A DNA stretch of 64,000 bases. Origin: a virus. The translations under genes were made by a program, and so were the position numbers. Each line of letters starts with the position of its first letter. The stretch's first letter is position 1. The notes below the pieces were generated by a model. The model had not been told where the DNA came from. It did no database searches and was given only the letters and a program-made list of their open reading frames with translations. The DNA lies in the IMG/VR virus record IMGVR_UViG_3300023179_000016, positions 1 to 64,000 of that record; one strand, 5' to 3'. Positions 26,244 through 63,579 of the stretch are shown in pieces.

Positions 26244-26498
26244 CTATTTGTTTTGCCCCAATGCAATACGAGCTATTTCTTGATATGCTTCATCTAAGTA
26301 TCCGCCTATAGATGATGGGGCAATATCTCCATCTGCAATCTGTTTTAATGCTTGCTTCAAGCGGATATTTTCTCGTTTTAGTTTTACAAAAAGTTTATTA
26401 TTGCAATCGCAGAGTTTTTCCGGATAACACGATGTGTCTGTGACGTACTTGTTTTTATGTCCCCTTAGAGATTTAATTTTTTCACGTCGTTTTTTCAT
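26244..26498 (-). CDS. Hypothetical small protein
   Basis: 84 residues, basic N-terminus, C-D-C-N-N in the middle, then a short coiled coil (L-K-R-E-N-I-R-L-K-Q-A-L-K-Q-I). The last 20 residues (L-D-E-A-Y-Q-E-I-A-R-I-A-L-G) faintly recall the ENARLREAL...ARAAL proteins at the right end of the window. It overlaps the upstream gene by 17 bases. Confidence 0.5.
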   Translation of the reverse strand: MKKRREKIKSLRGHKNKYVTDTSCYPEKLCDCNNKLFVKLKRENIRLKQALKQIADGDIAPSSIGGYLDEAYQEIARIALGQNK

Positions 26499-27018
26499 AT
26501 TTTGCTTTTAACTCCGCTGGCAGTTGTTCCCAGTCGTCATCGCTGACACTGCTACGTTGCGGCTCTGACTTTTCTAGACATCTGTATTTTTTCTCTTCTG
26601 GCTTGCGGGCCTCGATGACCGGTACACTGGAAATGCCCAAGCCGGTCTCCGCAAGCATGGCATCCATCTTGGCGCCGTTGATATACAGATAATCATTGGC
26701 TATGCATGCAACAGACATTGTCAACTGTATCTCTGAGCTATATGAATAATGCTTACTGCTGAAATATGTAGACCATACATCAAATTTGACACAAAGATCG
26801 GTATTCTTATATAGGATCTTTACCGTTCTATTGCATCTCATGGGAATCTTTCTCTTACCTATGACATCGTTGAATAGCGATATACCCATGTTATAGAAAT
26901 AAGTCACGATGTCATTTTCTGAGTCACCAGATATTGCTTTGATCGCATACATGAGACTGTTGCTGATCTGCAGCGATTTAAAGATGACCGGTCTATTGTT
27001 TACCTTAGCTACTTCCAT
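26482..27018 (-). CDS. Hypothetical protein with LPxELxxKY tail
   Basis: 178 residues from the ATG at 27018, chosen because AAGGAGATAAT precedes it; the frame also opens further upstream inside the previous gene. The body is beta-rich with a helix at A-I-K-A-I-S-G-D-S-E-N. The C-terminus reads W-E-Q-L-P-A-E-L-K-A-K-Y and resembles the shared LPxELxxKF tail of several other small proteins here. It is downstream of the MoxR/VWA genes and probably in their transcript. Confidence 0.55.
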   Translation of the reverse strand: MEVAKVNNRPVIFKSLQISNSLMYAIKAISGDSENDIVTYFYNMGISLFNDVIGKRKIPMRCNRTVKILYKNTDLCVKFDVWSTYFSSKHYSYSSEIQLTMSVACIANDYLYINGAKMDAMLAETGLGISSVPVIEARKPEEKKYRCLEKSEPQRSSVSDDDWEQLPAELKAKYEKTT

Positions 27019-57850: not shown

Positions 57851-58333
57851 TCACTCGCCAGACGTTGCCGTCGGAGCAAACTTGGCAGCGAGCTCCGGGG
57901 GCAGAGCACTGAGGTCGATCGTCGGCTGCTTGGACCGAGCGATCTCGGCGACCCGGGCATCGATGTGGGCCTGGACCTCAGCCCGGTCAGTGACGTCGGT
58001 GAGCGTTCCGAGCAGGGCTCGAAGAGCCTTGAGCTGCGGATCACCAGAACCAGAGCGAGAGCCAGGGTTCTTAGCCACATATGCGACCCCACCGTTCAGC
58101 CGCTTGTCCTTTCGGAGCCAGTTGCTCTGCAGGCCAGAGACATAGGCCTTCAGCTGCTGGTCGGTGAACTCCGTATCGAGCTCGATAGCTCCACCGCGGA
58201 ACCCCTCGAACAGGATCTGGTTCACCATGGCCCGCTCCTCACGGGACATCTCGACTGCACTCGAGAACTCGGTAGTTCCCTTGACGTTGACGACTGCACC
58301 ATAGACTGCTTCTTTCTGACTCATCTTGCTCAT
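57851..58333 (-). CDS. NWLRKD/LNGG family protein, copy B
   Basis: 160 residues. Q-K-E-A-V-Y-G-A-V, Y-V-S-G-L-Q-S-N-W-L-R-K-D, R-L-N-G-G-V, K-N-P-G-S-R-S-G-S, D-P-Q-L-K-A-L-R-A-L-L and the tail I-D-L-S-A-L-P-P-E-L-A-A-K-F plus nine residues. Closest to copy A at 48.9 kb in protein but clearly GC-richer in DNA. Promoter 58354-58370 and GGAGG upstream. Confidence 0.7.
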   Translation of the reverse strand: MSKMSQKEAVYGAVVNVKGTTEFSSAVEMSREERAMVNQILFEGFRGGAIELDTEFTDQQLKAYVSGLQSNWLRKDKRLNGGVAYVAKNPGSRSGSGDPQLKALRALLGTLTDVTDRAEVQAHIDARVAEIARSKQPTIDLSALPPELAAKFAPTATSGE

Positions 58334-58353
58334 AACTAACGTTCCTCCGTTGT

Positions 58354-58370
58354 TGTTCTATAAGATCGGG
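58354..58370 (-). promoter_or_regulatory. CCGA-TATA promoter
   Basis: Minus-strand TCCCGATCTTATAGAAC, 21-37 bases before copy B. Confidence 0.6.
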
Positions 58371-58528
58371 ATATCGGTCACCACGACCGGTATCTTCACC
58401 TATGGGGTGTTCGGTACTCACTCAAAACTGGCTACTTCCGCGTCTGCTGTGGCTACCTACTGCTTGCCGCCTGCCTCCACTGGGGAGAGCTCCACTCGCG
58501 CTACTCCCTGCTCTCTACATCATTACCA

Positions 58529-58546
58529 CCTAGATATATGTTCGGG
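58529..58546 (-). promoter_or_regulatory. CCGA-TATA promoter, upstream copy
   Basis: Minus-strand CCCGAACATATATCTAGG. The 160 bases between it and the next promoter have no convincing gene. Confidence 0.5.
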
Positions 58547-58737
58547 ATAATGGGATGTCGTGTAAGTCGCTGATACTATTGGTGGGGAAGGTTGGTGTGG
58601 AAGGGGTGTAACGGTGCCCACCTGAGTCACACTGAGTCTGACCCGACCTGCACGTCGCACTCACCGAGACTCCCCGATACCCGTCCAGACAGCCGATCGG
58701 GCTCGTGAGGTCATAGGCTCGGCTGCACCCGACAGCC

Positions 58738-58751
58738 GGCGTAGCAGTGTC
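58738..58751 (+). repeat. GGCGTAGCRGTGTC element, copy 3
   Basis: Exact GGCGTAGCAGTGTC just before the structured RNA region. Confidence 0.7.
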
Positions 58752-58764
58752 GGCGCGCGCTGAA

Positions 58765-59295
58765 AAGCAGTGGGTAGGGCAAGCAGCCGCTATTATATAG
58801 CCCGGCCAGGGCCATGTGCTGCCAGATCCCTACCCACGGACGCTTGTTGATCCCTTACTGCCTGAGTCTAGCCGTCGTCAGACAGGTCACCAACCTGTTA
58901 CGACCTCTAGATCGTTTCGGCCTTGGAAAGACTCACGTATCCGGGTACGGTTTTGAGAGCCACCCATCATACATATTCAGCAGGAGACAGAACCGTACAA
59001 GATTCTCCTACCGGTTAGACAATACATCCCGGTACTTCCGTCTAACAAGAGTACCGGATTTACCCCTCACTTTACCCGGACTAGGGACCGGTCACCGATA
59101 AGTGTCCTGGCTAGGACCACCGGTGAGTGGAAAACTGACTTACTTTCTGAGGCAGATGATCGGGAGCAGCGCGCGTGTTTCTGCGCCGAGAAGAAAAGCT
59201 ACGAGCGCATGACAGAAAAGCGTCTAATCCTACCAAGGCGGGCGCCGGGAATTGACCCGCCCACCCAGCGACCGCCCGATAAACCGCTGTTTTTT
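58765..59295 (+). ncRNA. Candidate large structured non-coding RNA
   Basis: About 530 bases without a believable gene but dense in pairing. A 10-bp stem GTGGGTAGGG/CCCTACCCAC closes 58770-58837 with inner hairpins (GCTAT/ATAGC, GCAGC/GCTGC). ACAGGT/ACCTGT follows at 58882-58898. GTACGGTT (58945) pairs with AACCGTAC (58991). GTTAGAC (59014)/GTCTAAC (59040) and CCGGTAC (59029)/GTACCGG (59051) interleave as a pseudoknot. A nested TCACCG/CGGTGA hairpin lies at 59092-59126. It ends in a T-run terminator on the plus strand. The layout recalls large ornate phage RNAs, but no family was recognised. 58551-58764 is also GC-rich and may belong to it. Confidence 0.5.
59266..59295 (+). terminator. Rho-independent terminator on the plus strand
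   Basis: CAGCG/CGCTG stem (59266-59270 with 59285-59289) followed by six T. A GC-rich hairpin GGCGGG/CCCGCC at 59237-59261 stands just before it. All neighbouring genes are on the minus strand. Confidence 0.6.
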
Positions 59296-59322
59296 GAGCC
59301 TAGCTAACCTCCGGGGCGTGGC

Positions 59323-59592
59323 TCATTTCCCCTCCAGCGCGGCGCGGGCAATACTTGGCAATGCACAATCACAGGACTTCCCAAATTGAATGTCGCACCG
59401 TTCATGGTGAATGGTCAGATATTGCTTCAGCGCCTCCCGAAGCCTGGCGTTTTCAGCGCTGACTTCCTCGATTGCGACACGATACCCAGCCAAAAACACT
59501 TCTATGTCAATGTGCATTACAGATGCGTCTTTCTGATAGGCTGGGAATCGCTGCTTTAGATATTCTTCTGCCAGTTTTTCGGCTCTAGTCAT
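59323..59592 (-). CDS. ENARLREAL cassette protein 1
   Basis: 89 residues from ATG 59592. Helical, with E-N-A-R-L-R-E-A-L in the middle, two Cys/His groups (H-H-E-R-C, C-D-C) and the tail A-R-A-A-L-E-G-K. Last member of a six-gene array whose members share the middle motif and the tail. Its start overlaps the stop of the gene before it as ATGA. Confidence 0.65.
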   Translation of the reverse strand: MTRAEKLAEEYLKQRFPAYQKDASVMHIDIEVFLAGYRVAIEEVSAENARLREALKQYLTIHHERCDIQFGKSCDCALPSIARAALEGK

Positions 59593-59792
59593 TTCCCCTC
59601 CAGCGCGGCGCGGGCGATCGATGCGCCACAAAGACAACCAGCGGTATAGTCACAACCTTCATCATGGGCGGCAAATCTTTCCAGCGCCTCCCGAAGCCGG
59701 GCGTTCTCGGCTTCCATTTCGGCTCGTCCGGATTCGTAACCCTGTTGCCATCCTGAGCACGTTCCCTTGCATGGGTGATTCAGCTTGTTCAT
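59589..59792 (-). CDS. ENARLREAL cassette protein 2
   Basis: 67 residues. C-K-G-T-C-S-G-W-Q-Q-G-Y-E-S-G start, A-E-N-A-R-L-R-E-A-L, H-D-E-G-C and C-L-C-G, tail A-R-A-A-L-E-G-K. The codons of L-E-G-K contain GGAGGGGAA, the ribosome site of the next gene. Confidence 0.65.
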   Translation of the reverse strand: MNKLNHPCKGTCSGWQQGYESGRAEMEAENARLREALERFAAHDEGCDYTAGCLCGASIARAALEGK

Positions 59793-60019
59793 TACTTCCC
59801 CTCCAGCGCGGCGCGGGCTTCAATTACTTCCTGTCTAAGTTCATCCCAAGCCTGACCTAGCTCTTCGTCCAGCAGAAGAGCCTCATCCACTTTATTGGTG
59901 ATCTTGCGAAGCGCCTCCCGAAGCCGGGTGTTTTCGGCTAAGAATCGATTCCTGGCCTCTTCAAATCCCCGCAACCACACCAATTCATCCGGACTTCCCG
60001 CCTCAGGTCTTGTGCTCAT
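59792..60019 (-). CDS. ENARLREAL cassette protein 3
   Basis: 75 residues. W-L-R-G-F-E-E-A-R-N-R-F-L-A-E-N-T-R-L-R-E-A-L-R, acidic centre without Cys, tail A-R-A-A-L-E-G-K. Confidence 0.65.
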   Translation of the reverse strand: MSTRPEAGSPDELVWLRGFEEARNRFLAENTRLREALRKITNKVDEALLLDEELGQAWDELRQEVIEARAALEGK

Positions 60020-60233
60020 TTAGTTTCTCCATAACATTGGCAGGGAGCATCTTTTCGTCTTCTAAAAAGACGTAATCGTACCCATCCGCGTGTTTCATCA
60101 GGTCTTCTTTTAACGAGCGAATGTCGGAGCTTATCCACTGTCCTAGAACCTGACCGTCTTCAGTGACACACACACCAACCACGTCCCAACCCGGGCTGGA
60201 CCCAAAGATCGGAAATCCATAAGCCTTCTTCAT
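60003..60233 (-). CDS. Unrelated cargo gene within the cassette array
   Basis: 76 residues from ATG 60233 with GAGGGGAGG before it. Has no ENARLREAL motif: F-P-I-F-G-S-S-P-G-W-D-V-V-G-V-C-V-T-E-D-G-Q-V-L-G-Q-W. Beta-rich start, helical end. Appears inserted between two cassette genes and uses the same type of coupled start. I recall similar sequences from uncharacterised small phage proteins. Confidence 0.6.
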   Translation of the reverse strand: MKKAYGFPIFGSSPGWDVVGVCVTEDGQVLGQWISSDIRSLKEDLMKHADGYDYVFLEDEKMLPANVMEKLNEHKT

Positions 60234-60565
60234 GCTTCCCTCCCCTCCAGCGCGGCACGGGCTGCACACTGCAGGCACCCCTGGTCGGAATAGCTGCACC
60301 GCTCATCGTGCCCACGGACCATTTCTTTCAGCGCCTCTCGCAGTCGTGCATTCTCAGACCGAAGCATAATTACCTCGTTAAGCCACTGCGGTGGCTCAAT
60401 AATGAGGTAAGACATACCCGCCCTTGTCCCCGGTGGATCGGACAAATGAATTTGTAAAGGCTCTGATGAGGCCAGTACGCAAGCATGGTCCTGAAGCGTG
60501 TTCAGTGAAACTTCTGCACCGCAGCGGGAGCATTTCCCAATTTTGTCGTTTGTAAAAAGGCTCAT
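60230..60565 (-). CDS. ENARLREAL cassette protein 4, with zinc ribbon
   Basis: 111 residues from ATG 60565. N-terminal C-S-R-C-G-A-E zinc knuckle with H-A-C later, then R-S-E-N-A-R-L-R-E-A-L-K, H-D-E-R-C, C-L-Q-C-A-A-R-A-A-L-E-G-R. The longest member of the array. Confidence 0.65.
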   Translation of the reverse strand: MSLFTNDKIGKCSRCGAEVSLNTLQDHACVLASSEPLQIHLSDPPGTRAGMSYLIIEPPQWLNEVIMLRSENARLREALKEMVRGHDERCSYSDQGCLQCAARAALEGREA

Positions 60566-60804
60566 TTCCCCTCCAGCGCGGCGCGGGCGATATTTCCGAG
60601 CGTGCAATCGCAGAATCGAGCAGCGTCCAGCGGTGGGTTATCCCGCGAGGCGCAATCGTGGAAATGCGTGTAAGCGTACTCCTCCAGCGCCTCCCGAAGC
60701 CGGGCATTTTCAGCTTCAAGCTCTTTCATTTTTGTAGTGACTTCTTGGTTATACCGATCGGCAGAATCCAGCATGTCCTTTGTGAGATCCAATTCATCCT
60801 TCAC
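60562..60804 (-). CDS. ENARLREAL cassette protein 5, first gene of the array
   Basis: 80 residues starting with GTG 60804 (GGAAAGGAG upstream). Coiled-coil start, L-E-A-E-N-A-R-L-R-E-A-L-E, H-D-C, C-D-C, tail A-R-A-A-L-E-G-K. A perfect extended -10 box lies about 135 bases upstream. Confidence 0.65.
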   Translation of the reverse strand: MKDELDLTKDMLDSADRYNQEVTTKMKELEAENARLREALEEYAYTHFHDCASRDNPPLDAARFCDCTLGNIARAALEGK

Positions 60805-61206: not shown

Positions 61207-61220
61207 ATCTTTCTCCTGTT

Positions 61221-61236
61221 GAGATTTAGGATCGGG
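61221..61236 (-). promoter_or_regulatory. CCGA-TATA-like promoter
   Basis: Minus-strand CCCGATCCTAAATCTC, 15-30 bases before ATG 61206; weaker TATA part. Confidence 0.4.
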
Positions 61237-61242
61237 ATGGGT

Positions 61243-61404: not shown

Positions 61405-61421
61405 TCATATCCTCCATACAT

Positions 61422-61440
61422 GGAATTATATGATCGGGAT
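61422..61440 (-). promoter_or_regulatory. CCGA-TATA promoter
   Basis: Minus-strand TCCCGATCATATAATTCC, 18-36 bases before ATG 61404. Confidence 0.6.
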
Positions 61441-61478: not shown

Positions 61479-61494
61479 GGTCGGCGAGCAGCCG

Positions 61495-61516
61495 GGCGGA
61501 GCTTCCTTGCTCCGCC
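61495..61516 (-). terminator. Hairpin terminator GGCGGAGC/GCTCCGCC
   Basis: 8-bp GC-rich stem with loop TTCCTT, 13 bases after the stop of the gene at 61529. The same stem and loop recur at 61983 and, slightly changed, at 63045. Confidence 0.7.
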
Positions 61517-61528
61517 TGCTCACTCAGG

Positions 61529-61879
61529 TTACTTGGAGTAGGCGACCACACCGTACAGTAGTCCGTTACCGGAACCATCGACTGGTTCGTCGACCATCTT
61601 GTATCCGAAAAGCTCCATGTTGTAGTTGAGTGCGTCGAGCATGTGGTCGATCCACTCGTTGAGTTCATGAGCATCGTCGGGTTTCAAGCCGTCGTCTGCG
61701 TAGTCATAGTGGACGACTATATCGCCCAACTTTATTGAAGGAAGAACTCCGTAGTTAGAGATGTTGGTCGGATCGATCGCTTCGACATACATGCTGCCAG
61801 GCATGTCACACTTGGCCTGGTGCGGAGCAGTTGACTCGAGATTGCTCACCAGTTTCACTACGGTGTTCATGTTAGCCAT
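61529..61879 (-). CDS. Hypothetical acidic protein
   Basis: 116 residues. V-V-H-Y-D-Y-A-D-D-G-L-K-P-D-D-A-H-E-L-N-E-W-I-D-H-M-L-D-A-L-N-Y-N-M-E-L-F-G-Y-K is a helical acidic core; start M-N-T-V-V-K-L-V-S-N. It shares its 5' leader with the gene at 62668-62925. Not recognised. Confidence 0.6.
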   Translation of the reverse strand: MANMNTVVKLVSNLESTAPHQAKCDMPGSMYVEAIDPTNISNYGVLPSIKLGDIVVHYDYADDGLKPDDAHELNEWIDHMLDALNYNMELFGYKMVDEPVDGSGNGLLYGVVAYSK

Positions 61880-61982: not shown

Positions 61983-62006
61983 GGGCGGAGCTTCCTTGCT
62001 CCGCCC
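61983..62006 (-). terminator. Hairpin terminator GGGCGGAGC/GCTCCGCCC
   Basis: 9-bp stem, loop TTCCTT, 15 bases after the stop of copy C. Confidence 0.7.
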
Positions 62007-62020
62007 AACCGCAGGTCAGC

Positions 62021-62488
62021 TCAGGCCTTGAACTTCGCGGCCAGCTCTGCAGGCAGCTGGCTGAAGTCGATGGCGGGCTTCGCGGGCTTGGCGATCTCGG
62101 CACTCCTGAGGTCGATGAAGTGCTGGATCTCAGCCCTGTCGGCCGGGTCAGTCACCGTGCTGAGCAGGGCCTTGAGAGCCTTGATCTGCGGGTCGCCAGA
62201 GCCAGAGCGAGCACCAGGGTTCTTGGTGACCCAGGTAGTCCCGCCGTTGAGTCGCTGGTCCTTGCGGAGCCAGTTGTTCACGAGGCCGACCACGTACTTC
62301 TTGAGCTCCGGCTCAGAGAAGTTGGCCTTGAGGGTGATCTTACCCTCCTTGAACATGGTGACCAGCTCCGAGTGGATCTGGGCCAGCTCAGACTTGCTGG
62401 GCGTGTGAGCTCCGTTAGGAGCGAACTGAGTGCAGAAGCAGCTGACGACATTGAAGACCGCTTCCTTCTGGTTCATTGCTGCGATCAT
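62021..62488 (-). CDS. NWLRKD/LNGG family protein, copy C
   Basis: 155 residues from ATG 62488 (GGAGG upstream; the frame opens further up). N-Q-K-E-A-V-F-N-V-V, Y-V-V-G-L-V-N-N-W-L-R-K-D, R-L-N-G-G-T, K-N-P-G-A-R-S-G-S, D-P-Q-I-K-A-L-K-A-L-L, tail I-D-F-S-Q-L-P-A-E-L-A-A-K-F. Terminator and CCGA-TATA promoter belong to this gene alone. Confidence 0.7.
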   Translation of the reverse strand: MIAAMNQKEAVFNVVSCFCTQFAPNGAHTPSKSELAQIHSELVTMFKEGKITLKANFSEPELKKYVVGLVNNWLRKDQRLNGGTTWVTKNPGARSGSGDPQIKALKALLSTVTDPADRAEIQHFIDLRSAEIAKPAKPAIDFSQLPAELAAKFKA

Positions 62489-62563
62489 GCGGGTTTCCTC
62501 CGTTGGTTGGTTGTAGGTTCGGGCGCGAGCTGTAAACTCGAGCATCATGCGCTCGACATTTAC

Positions 62564-62583
62564 AATTAGATATAAGATCGGGG
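62564..62583 (-). promoter_or_regulatory. CCGA-TATA promoter
   Basis: Minus-strand CCCGATCTTATATCTAATTG. The leader to ATG 62488 is about 70 bases and holds no gene. Confidence 0.6.
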
Positions 62584-62600
62584 GAAGTCGGTATGCGGCC

Positions 62601-62614
62601 GGCGTAGCAGTGTC
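62601..62614 (+). repeat. GGCGTAGCRGTGTC element, copy 6
   Basis: Exact GGCGTAGCAGTGTC. Confidence 0.7.
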
Positions 62615-62632
62615 ACGGCGCGCGGACCAAAG

Positions 62633-62656
62633 GGTGGGGTCGTCCATGACCCCACC
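62633..62656 (-). terminator. Hairpin terminator GGTGGGGTC/GACCCCACC
   Basis: 9-bp stem, 6-base loop, 12 bases after the stop of the gene at 62668. Confidence 0.7.
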
Positions 62657-63084: not shown

Positions 63085-63522
63085 TCAGCGCTTGCCGAAC
63101 TTGGCTGCGATCTCTGCAGGCAGCTTGCTGAAGTCGACCTTGGGTCGGTTCAGCTCGGCGATCCGAGAGTCGATGTGTCGCTGGATCTCAGCTCGATCCG
63201 TCGGGTCGGTGATGGTGCTGAGCAGAGCCCTGAGCGCAGTCAGCTGGGGATCATCGACTCGGGAGGACTTGGGTTGGTGATCGACCCCACCGTTCAGCCG
63301 CTTGTCCTTTCGGAGCCAGTTGTTGAGCAACCCTGAGACATAGTTGCTCAGCTCCTTGTCGGTGTACTCCTTCCTGAGCTCGATGCTCCCGTTCCTGAAC
63401 CCCTCGAACAAGACCTGACGGATGGTTCGGGTCTGCTCAGAAGTCGGCTCGCAGACGCCGACTCCATCGAACCCGGTGATCGCGACCACTGCCTGGTAGA
63501 CTGCTTCCTTCTGGTTCATCAT
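63085..63522 (-). CDS. NWLRKD/LNGG family protein, copy D
   Basis: 145 residues from ATG 63522 (GAGGAG upstream). M-N-Q-K-E-A-V-Y-Q-A-V, Y-V-S-G-L-L-N-N-W-L-R-K-D, R-L-N-G-G-V-D, D-P-Q-L-T-A-L-R-A-L-L, tail V-D-F-S-K-L-P-A-E-I-A-A-K-F. The K-N-P-G-S-R loop is shortened. Three CCGA/CTGA-TATA-like boxes lie upstream. Confidence 0.7.
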   Translation of the reverse strand: MMNQKEAVYQAVVAITGFDGVGVCEPTSEQTRTIRQVLFEGFRNGSIELRKEYTDKELSNYVSGLLNNWLRKDKRLNGGVDHQPKSSRVDDPQLTALRALLSTITDPTDRAEIQRHIDSRIAELNRPKVDFSKLPAEIAAKFGKR

Positions 63523-63579
63523 GCGATGCTCCTCATGATCCATTGTAGGATCAGTTGACACATCCATGCGTCGGGTTGA

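Follow-up and report, generated by a model that had tools for sequence, protein, structure and literature searches.

The window analysed here comprises bases 1-64000 of a 153,399-base virus record. The record belongs to a tailed phage and encodes tail fibres, ribonucleotide reductase, portal protein, and a UvsX-like recombinase (L007:5391-6515). Five small genes lie head to tail on the minus strand from 60804 to 59323, with an unrelated sixth gene between genes 2 and 3. As the first-pass annotation had reported, the five encoded proteins share a core, ENARLREAL, and a tail, ARAALEGK, although the final residue of the tail is either K or R. One of them reads ENTRLREAL, and alignment of the five gave 15 invariant columns. 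In the DNA, the core corresponds to a 38-nt block and the tail to one of 31 nt, each present five times. The features are as follows.

60562..60804, minus strand: array gene 1, 80 aa; GTG start with Shine-Dalgarno (SD) sequence GGAG; long N-terminal helix, ENARLREAL core, H/C-rich middle module, and IARAALEGK tail
60230..60565, minus strand: array gene 2, 111 aa; starts within the ATGA joint of gene 1; tail ARAALEGREA
60003..60233, minus strand: unrelated inserted gene, 76 aa; array-type joint at the 5' end, own SD (GGAG) at the 3' end
59792..60019, minus strand: array gene 3, 75 aa; ENTRLREAL core, EARAALEGK tail; middle module without the H/C pattern
59589..59792, minus strand: array gene 4, 67 aa; starts at the TAATG joint of gene 3
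59323..59592, minus strand: array gene 5 (last), 89 aa; full tail and ATGA kept, followed only by an 8-codon ORF
60562..60592, minus strand: tail joint copy 1 (SD and overlapping start), tail repeat family
60236..60266, minus strand: tail joint copy 2, tail repeat family
59792..59822, minus strand: tail joint copy 3, tail repeat family
59589..59619, minus strand: tail joint copy 4, tail repeat family
59323..59353, minus strand: tail joint copy 5 (terminal, no successor gene), tail repeat family
60677..60714, minus strand: core joint of gene 1 (ENARLREAL codons), core repeat family
60321..60358, minus strand: core joint of gene 2, core repeat family
59901..59938, minus strand: core joint of gene 3, core repeat family
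59674..59711, minus strand: core joint of gene 4, core repeat family
59420..59457, minus strand: core joint of gene 5, core repeat family
26244..26507, minus strand: lone distant family member, frame up to 87 aa; core ENIRLKQAL, end IARIALGQNK

The predicted model of the gene 1 protein (mean pLDDT 82.5) consists of a 51-residue helix (residues 2-52), a loop, and a second helix (67-78), which is formed by the ARAALEGK end. Given this helix-loop-helix arrangement, the middle module forms the tip of a helical stalk in the model. Four of the five window proteins have a possible zinc site, H-x3-C-x(5-13)-C-x(1,2)-C, in this module. A looser pattern, H-x(1-3)-C-x(4-14)-C-x(1,2)-C, which may be a zinc knuckle, was present in seven of the 69 family members listed (four window genes, L015, L079, and L155). 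Profile searches against Pfam, PHROGs, and PADLOC gave no significant match to a known protein family, and the array proteins had weak coiled-coil or zinc-finger scores only, below cut-off.

The tail codons CTGGAGGGGAA form an SD site ahead of the next start. The strong SD lies in CTG GAG GGG AA, and the stop codon overlaps or directly adjoins the start of the following gene (ATGA, TAATG), leaving no intergenic space at the joints. The five array joints read GCGCTGGAGGGGAA|ATGA (three copies), GCGCTGGAGGGGAAGTA|ATGA (one copy), and GCGCTGGAGGGGAGGGAAGC|ATGA (one copy). Glycine codons in 31 EG-type tails were GGG in 26, GGA in three, GGT in one, and GGC in one, while GGG made up 15.7% of glycine codons in the same loci. 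Codon identity within ARAAL, including GCCCGCGCC upstream of the SD, is also far above the expectation from codon usage. Together, the GGG bias and the ARAAL codon identity indicate that the tail match is beyond chance. The proposal that each gene carries the ribosome site of its successor is thus borne out. The inserted gene (60233-60003) had been described as having the same joint. This holds for its 5' end, which is entered through an array joint; it leaves through its own SD, ATGGAGAAACTAA-ATG, and overlaps gene 3 by 17 nt, so the joint is not the same on both sides.

The last 3-9 residues vary in the family, and LREAL...ARAAL is constant as protein. Ends include EGK, GEGKE, GEKE, AKEGQ, NKEGE, KEVRK, and QGEGK, and among the matches listed their codons nearly always hold an SD and an overlapping start. 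In the less biased subset, where only the core and ARAAL were fixed, 28/37 of the matches listed had both, compared with 68/189 small same-strand genes within 4 kb (OR 5.5, p=1.6e-5, uncorrected for shared ancestry). For all members listed, many of which were found by their tail, the figures were 55/69 against 126/764 neighbours (OR 20). An SD was missing from the last 26 nt in six of the seven listed members scored without a close start and in 6/62 of those with one (p=5e-5); neither this comparison nor that for all members is corrected for shared ancestry. One of those six, L183, really has an SD and start at the joint and then reads on to a later stop. LREAL...ARAAL is kept in SD-less members (L011, L013, L108, and window 26244). 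Because the ends vary while the SD stays, and members without a successor mostly lack the SD, ARAAL is conserved for the protein and the final residues for the ribosome site. The conserved tail is, on these sequences, best described by two constraints. The first-pass annotation had counted a conserved tail in the last gene of an operon against its own cassette proposal. The last window gene (59323) does keep its full tail with no successor, and it is the SD-bearing exception among the seven; in five other successor-less members the SD is absent.

The overlapping codons make translational coupling of the array genes likely. Start and stop codons overlap at nearly all joints, which would also suit an account in which the joints are conserved for regulated translation, by coupling or by an SD-sequestering hairpin, and not for exchange. 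Twelve joints folded no better than shuffled sequences (10 of the 12 z-scores were positive), which rules out an SD-hiding RNA hairpin at these joints. Regulated translation also leaves the modular assortment and breakpoints described below unexplained, and we consider it highly improbable.

Relatives were sought in metagenomic, isolate, and cellular sequences. Scanning IMG/VR for ARAALEGK followed by a stop returned 17 stretches; all but one of the tails that were translated from this set lay in small genes with an upstream LR.AL-type core, and all used GAG GGG or GAG GGA. The same string in 257 Gb of cellular genomes gave only nine stretches, in unrelated proteins with mixed codons. A second IMG/VR scan, in which the core and ARAAL were fixed and the following residues free, returned at least 120 stretches. 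The family contains at least 69 genes, nearly all on metagenomic virus contigs; membership was set by motif rules, the contigs are mostly fragments from metagenomes, and some of the genes sampled were picked up via the tail itself. The lone distant member in the window (26244-26507) has no SD tail or close successor, and its middle module (GGYLDEAYQ) is common to L030. Searches by DNA and by protein found no close relatives in isolate phages. One relative's module had weak matches in Rhizobium phage, and the small-gene chain of the matched phage lacks the ARAALEGK tail. Rhizobium phages RHph_Y1_10 and RHph_N2 (L221, L222) have overlapping small-gene chains before an integrase, with shared ends and different contents. 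Plasmid matches to the 32-nt joint were short and partial (glpK and others) and look like chance. For the inserted gene there was a single match, short and partial, and the sequence read around that match contained no array; no relatives of the upstream neighbour at 61879 were found.

Exchange of cassettes is visible in related phages of other lineages. L020, L027, and L015/L024 have the same flanks and different cassettes between them, with breaks at core and tail, which supports the suggestion that cassettes can be gained, lost, or swapped at the repeats with the ribosome site kept. The upstream flank gene has 88-93% identity, which continues into the first array gene as far as its core, QAAEN(K/R)RLR, and the downstream flank gene has 80-97% identity from the tail GCCCGCGCCGCGCTGGAGGGGAA onward. 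Every small gene between these flanks has a core and a tail. Parts of genes are exchanged as well: the last 32 residues of one L027 gene match an L020 gene, and the N-terminus is different. Among 2346 pairs of the members listed, 11 shared the middle with an unrelated N-terminus, 26 shared the N-terminus with an unrelated middle, and three shared both.

Tails coincided with 24 homology breakpoints (random 7.8 +/- 2.7) and cores with 19 (random 8.0 +/- 2.8), a breakpoint being the end of a homologous stretch of at least 60 nt between loci. None of 1000 simulations was as high in either case, and the counts are uncorrected for shared ancestry. Ordinary exchange at gene ends could account for part of the enrichment, though not for the core signal. 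A short sequence is thus common to the borders of exchanged modules, both in L020, L027, and L015 and in the breakpoint enrichment.

Tandem duplication and divergence of a coiled-coil gene could yield an ordinary paralogous family, in which the motifs are kept for protein function and the SD overlap reflects tight operon packing. Retention of LREAL...ARAAL in the SD-less members agrees with this, as do the simple predicted helix-loop-helix fold and the frequency of SD with overlapping start in small neighbours (68/189). Paralogy is largely refuted by the independent assortment of N-terminal parts and middle modules; the replacement of cassettes between identical flanks, the GGG bias, the persistence of the SD while terminal residues differ, and the identity of ARAAL codons between unrelated phages also speak against it. 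We regard it as unlikely.

Still less probable is a tail that serves as the site of a dedicated recombinase (integron-like or site-specific) or as some other DNA-level signal, with the SD secondary. Conservation of GCCCGCGCC upstream of the SD goes far beyond codon usage, and near-identical tails of 25-30 nt recur across unrelated contigs, as such a site would predict. The core blocks are breakpoints too, and their sequence is a different one. The tails themselves differ in length and sequence (ALEGK, ALGEGK, AKEGQ), the RNA strand folds no better than shuffles, and, by ORF size alone, no integrase-size ORF adjoins the array in the stretch read. The SD does not account for the conservation of the ARAAL codons that precede it. 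Shared, recombining ancestry fits these sequences, and a further role of the codons at the DNA level is conceivable.

Recombination has been reported to need a pairing length of at least 31-34 bp with RecA and 23-27 with Red beta (PMC3945230), and the minimal homology for phage recombination is approximately 30 bp (PMC2327257). The core and tail blocks, at 25-45 nt, are within this range. Our preferred interpretation, to which we assign a probability of about 0.78, is that the genes form a combinatorial array, each with two joints built in, and that they are probably shuffled by short-homology recombination. Each protein consists of an N-terminal part, a coiled-coil core (ENARLREAL or EIERLREAL), an exchangeable middle, a C-terminal helix (IARAAL), and a few residues whose codons are the SD, and the successor gene starts inside or beside the stop codon. 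Blocks of ~25-45 nt that are nearly identical between unrelated phages could act as short homology patches. Recombination between tails would swap, add, or remove whole genes, and recombination between cores, or between core and tail, would swap N-terminal parts or middle modules in frame. In every product the frame would stay open and the successor would still have its ribosome site. Having a core and a tail joint in every gene thus allows parts of genes to be swapped as well as whole genes, and because the shared end piece carries the start signal of the next gene, swaps between viruses would leave the row intact. Homologous or annealing recombination may carry out the exchange, and the phage's own UvsX-like recombinase is a candidate. 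Several points stand against the two-joint model. Recent common ancestry of the whole block could explain ARAAL codon conservation without repeated recombination, and the last window gene keeps its tail with no successor.

In the window's own lineage, the comparison concerns presence or absence of the array only, the exchange described above being from other lineages. Other virus records, of up to 176 kb, encode the family of the flanking gene at 58333-57851 at nine loci, with 60-68% identity. The comparison yielded no close relative carrying a different array. None of these nine loci has the array motif, and the core pattern is absent from six whole records that carry the flanking gene. The array therefore looks like an acquisition in this lineage, where the compared records are known to share one gene family. 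At the level of sequence comparison, the absence of the array from records with the flanking gene is established, as are the modular structure, the SD in the tail with its codon bias, and the cassette differences with breaks at the joints.

Several known phage arrangements resemble the array in part. Kroger and Hobom (1982, cited in PMC7166090) are said to have described the ninR region as a "chain of interlinked genes", with the nin genes as a chain of overlapping genes. Boundary sequences of lambdoid phages are short homologies at module borders that have been proposed to mediate exchange (PMC3029335). The array shares short homologies at module borders with these boundary sequences, and a chain of overlapping genes with ninR. 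It differs from the lambdoid boundary sequences in that its boundary is coding sequence, at the 3' end of the genes of a protein family, and is repeated many times per array, that its genes have a second, internal boundary, and that it is found in unrelated non-lambdoid phages. The array is best read as a variant of the known phage boundary sequences in which the boundary codes for protein.

Start-Associated Sequences (SAS) of cluster K mycobacteriophages are 13-bp elements, GGGATAGGAGCCC (Pope et al., 2011; PMC3203893). They are SD-containing repeats directly upstream of many genes, are conserved beyond the need for SD pairing, and sometimes overlap the upstream stop (PMC3203893). The array joint is likewise an SD-containing repeat immediately upstream of many different genes, but its sequence, GCCCGCGCCGCGCTGGAGGGGAA, does not match the 13-bp consensus GGGATAGGAGCCC. 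In addition, SAS lie outside any conserved protein C-terminus, lack a core joint, and have not been reported with modular proteins. Promoter early stem-loop (PeSL) cassettes of T4-type phages consist of a promoter and stem-loop between small accessory genes and are thought to promote shuffling. Both systems have a regulatory element repeated among small accessory genes, whereas in the array the ribosome site is embedded in the 3' coding sequence of the gene before it, and the 12 joints form no stem-loop when compared with shuffles. Integron cassettes also form a row of exchangeable small genes, but the joints of the array are coding and have no attC-like structure. Lack of an RNA hairpin at the joint thus sets the array apart from both PeSL cassettes and attC sites.

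The nearest protein analogue is Ea22 of lambdoid phages, a product of mosaic genes with a short variable N-terminus, a central coiled coil, and exchangeable C-terminal domains (PMC10834534). In the array proteins, by contrast, the exchangeable module sits between the coiled coil and a C-terminal helix, and the genes occur in arrays. Neither the Pfam Ead_Ea22 nor the DUF551 profile matched the window array proteins (E<=1) or their relatives (E<=0.01). A literature search covering few subscription journals found no description of this arrangement.

The borders of this array are visible, repeated, and inside coding sequence, and the SD in the tail gives a clear reason for exchange products to be translatable. 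The two-joint structure is a directly testable model of combinatorial gene making. LREAL...ARAAL with an SD and overlapping start is a simple search key for a large unannotated class of small phage proteins. The array proteins may be quickly diversified accessory proteins, perhaps for early host takeover or counter-defence, each shaped as a long helix with a variable tip that in some cases resembles a zinc knuckle. Our guess is that a constant stalk with a rapidly exchanged tip is suited to accessory proteins that meet varied host partners. More tentatively, and at slightly less than even odds, the array may represent a widespread diversity-generating arrangement of phages, in which conserved segments of the protein double as recombination patches and ribosome site and a "standard part" joint is common to unrelated phages. 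If so, new accessory proteins would be made by shuffling head, tip, and gene order independently.

The surroundings of the array contain other repeated elements. Three paralogous genes with a NWLRKDKRLNGG motif flank the array region on the minus strand (57851-58333, 62021-62647, and 63085-63567), and other virus records also carry several copies of this family. Approximately 1 kb 3' of the array (58340-59320) has no convincing gene; the single Rfam match there is weak and below threshold (Cupriavidus-1, 59029-59106), and near 59240 lies a T-arm-like stretch that ARAGORN does not call. Near-identical hairpin repeats, GGGCGGAGCTTCCTTGCTCCGCC, lie between small genes at 61494-61516 and 61984-62006 and are perhaps terminators. 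A leader-like repeat ending in GATCGGGAT is located beside small genes at 58351-58372, 61217-61238, and 61419-61440.
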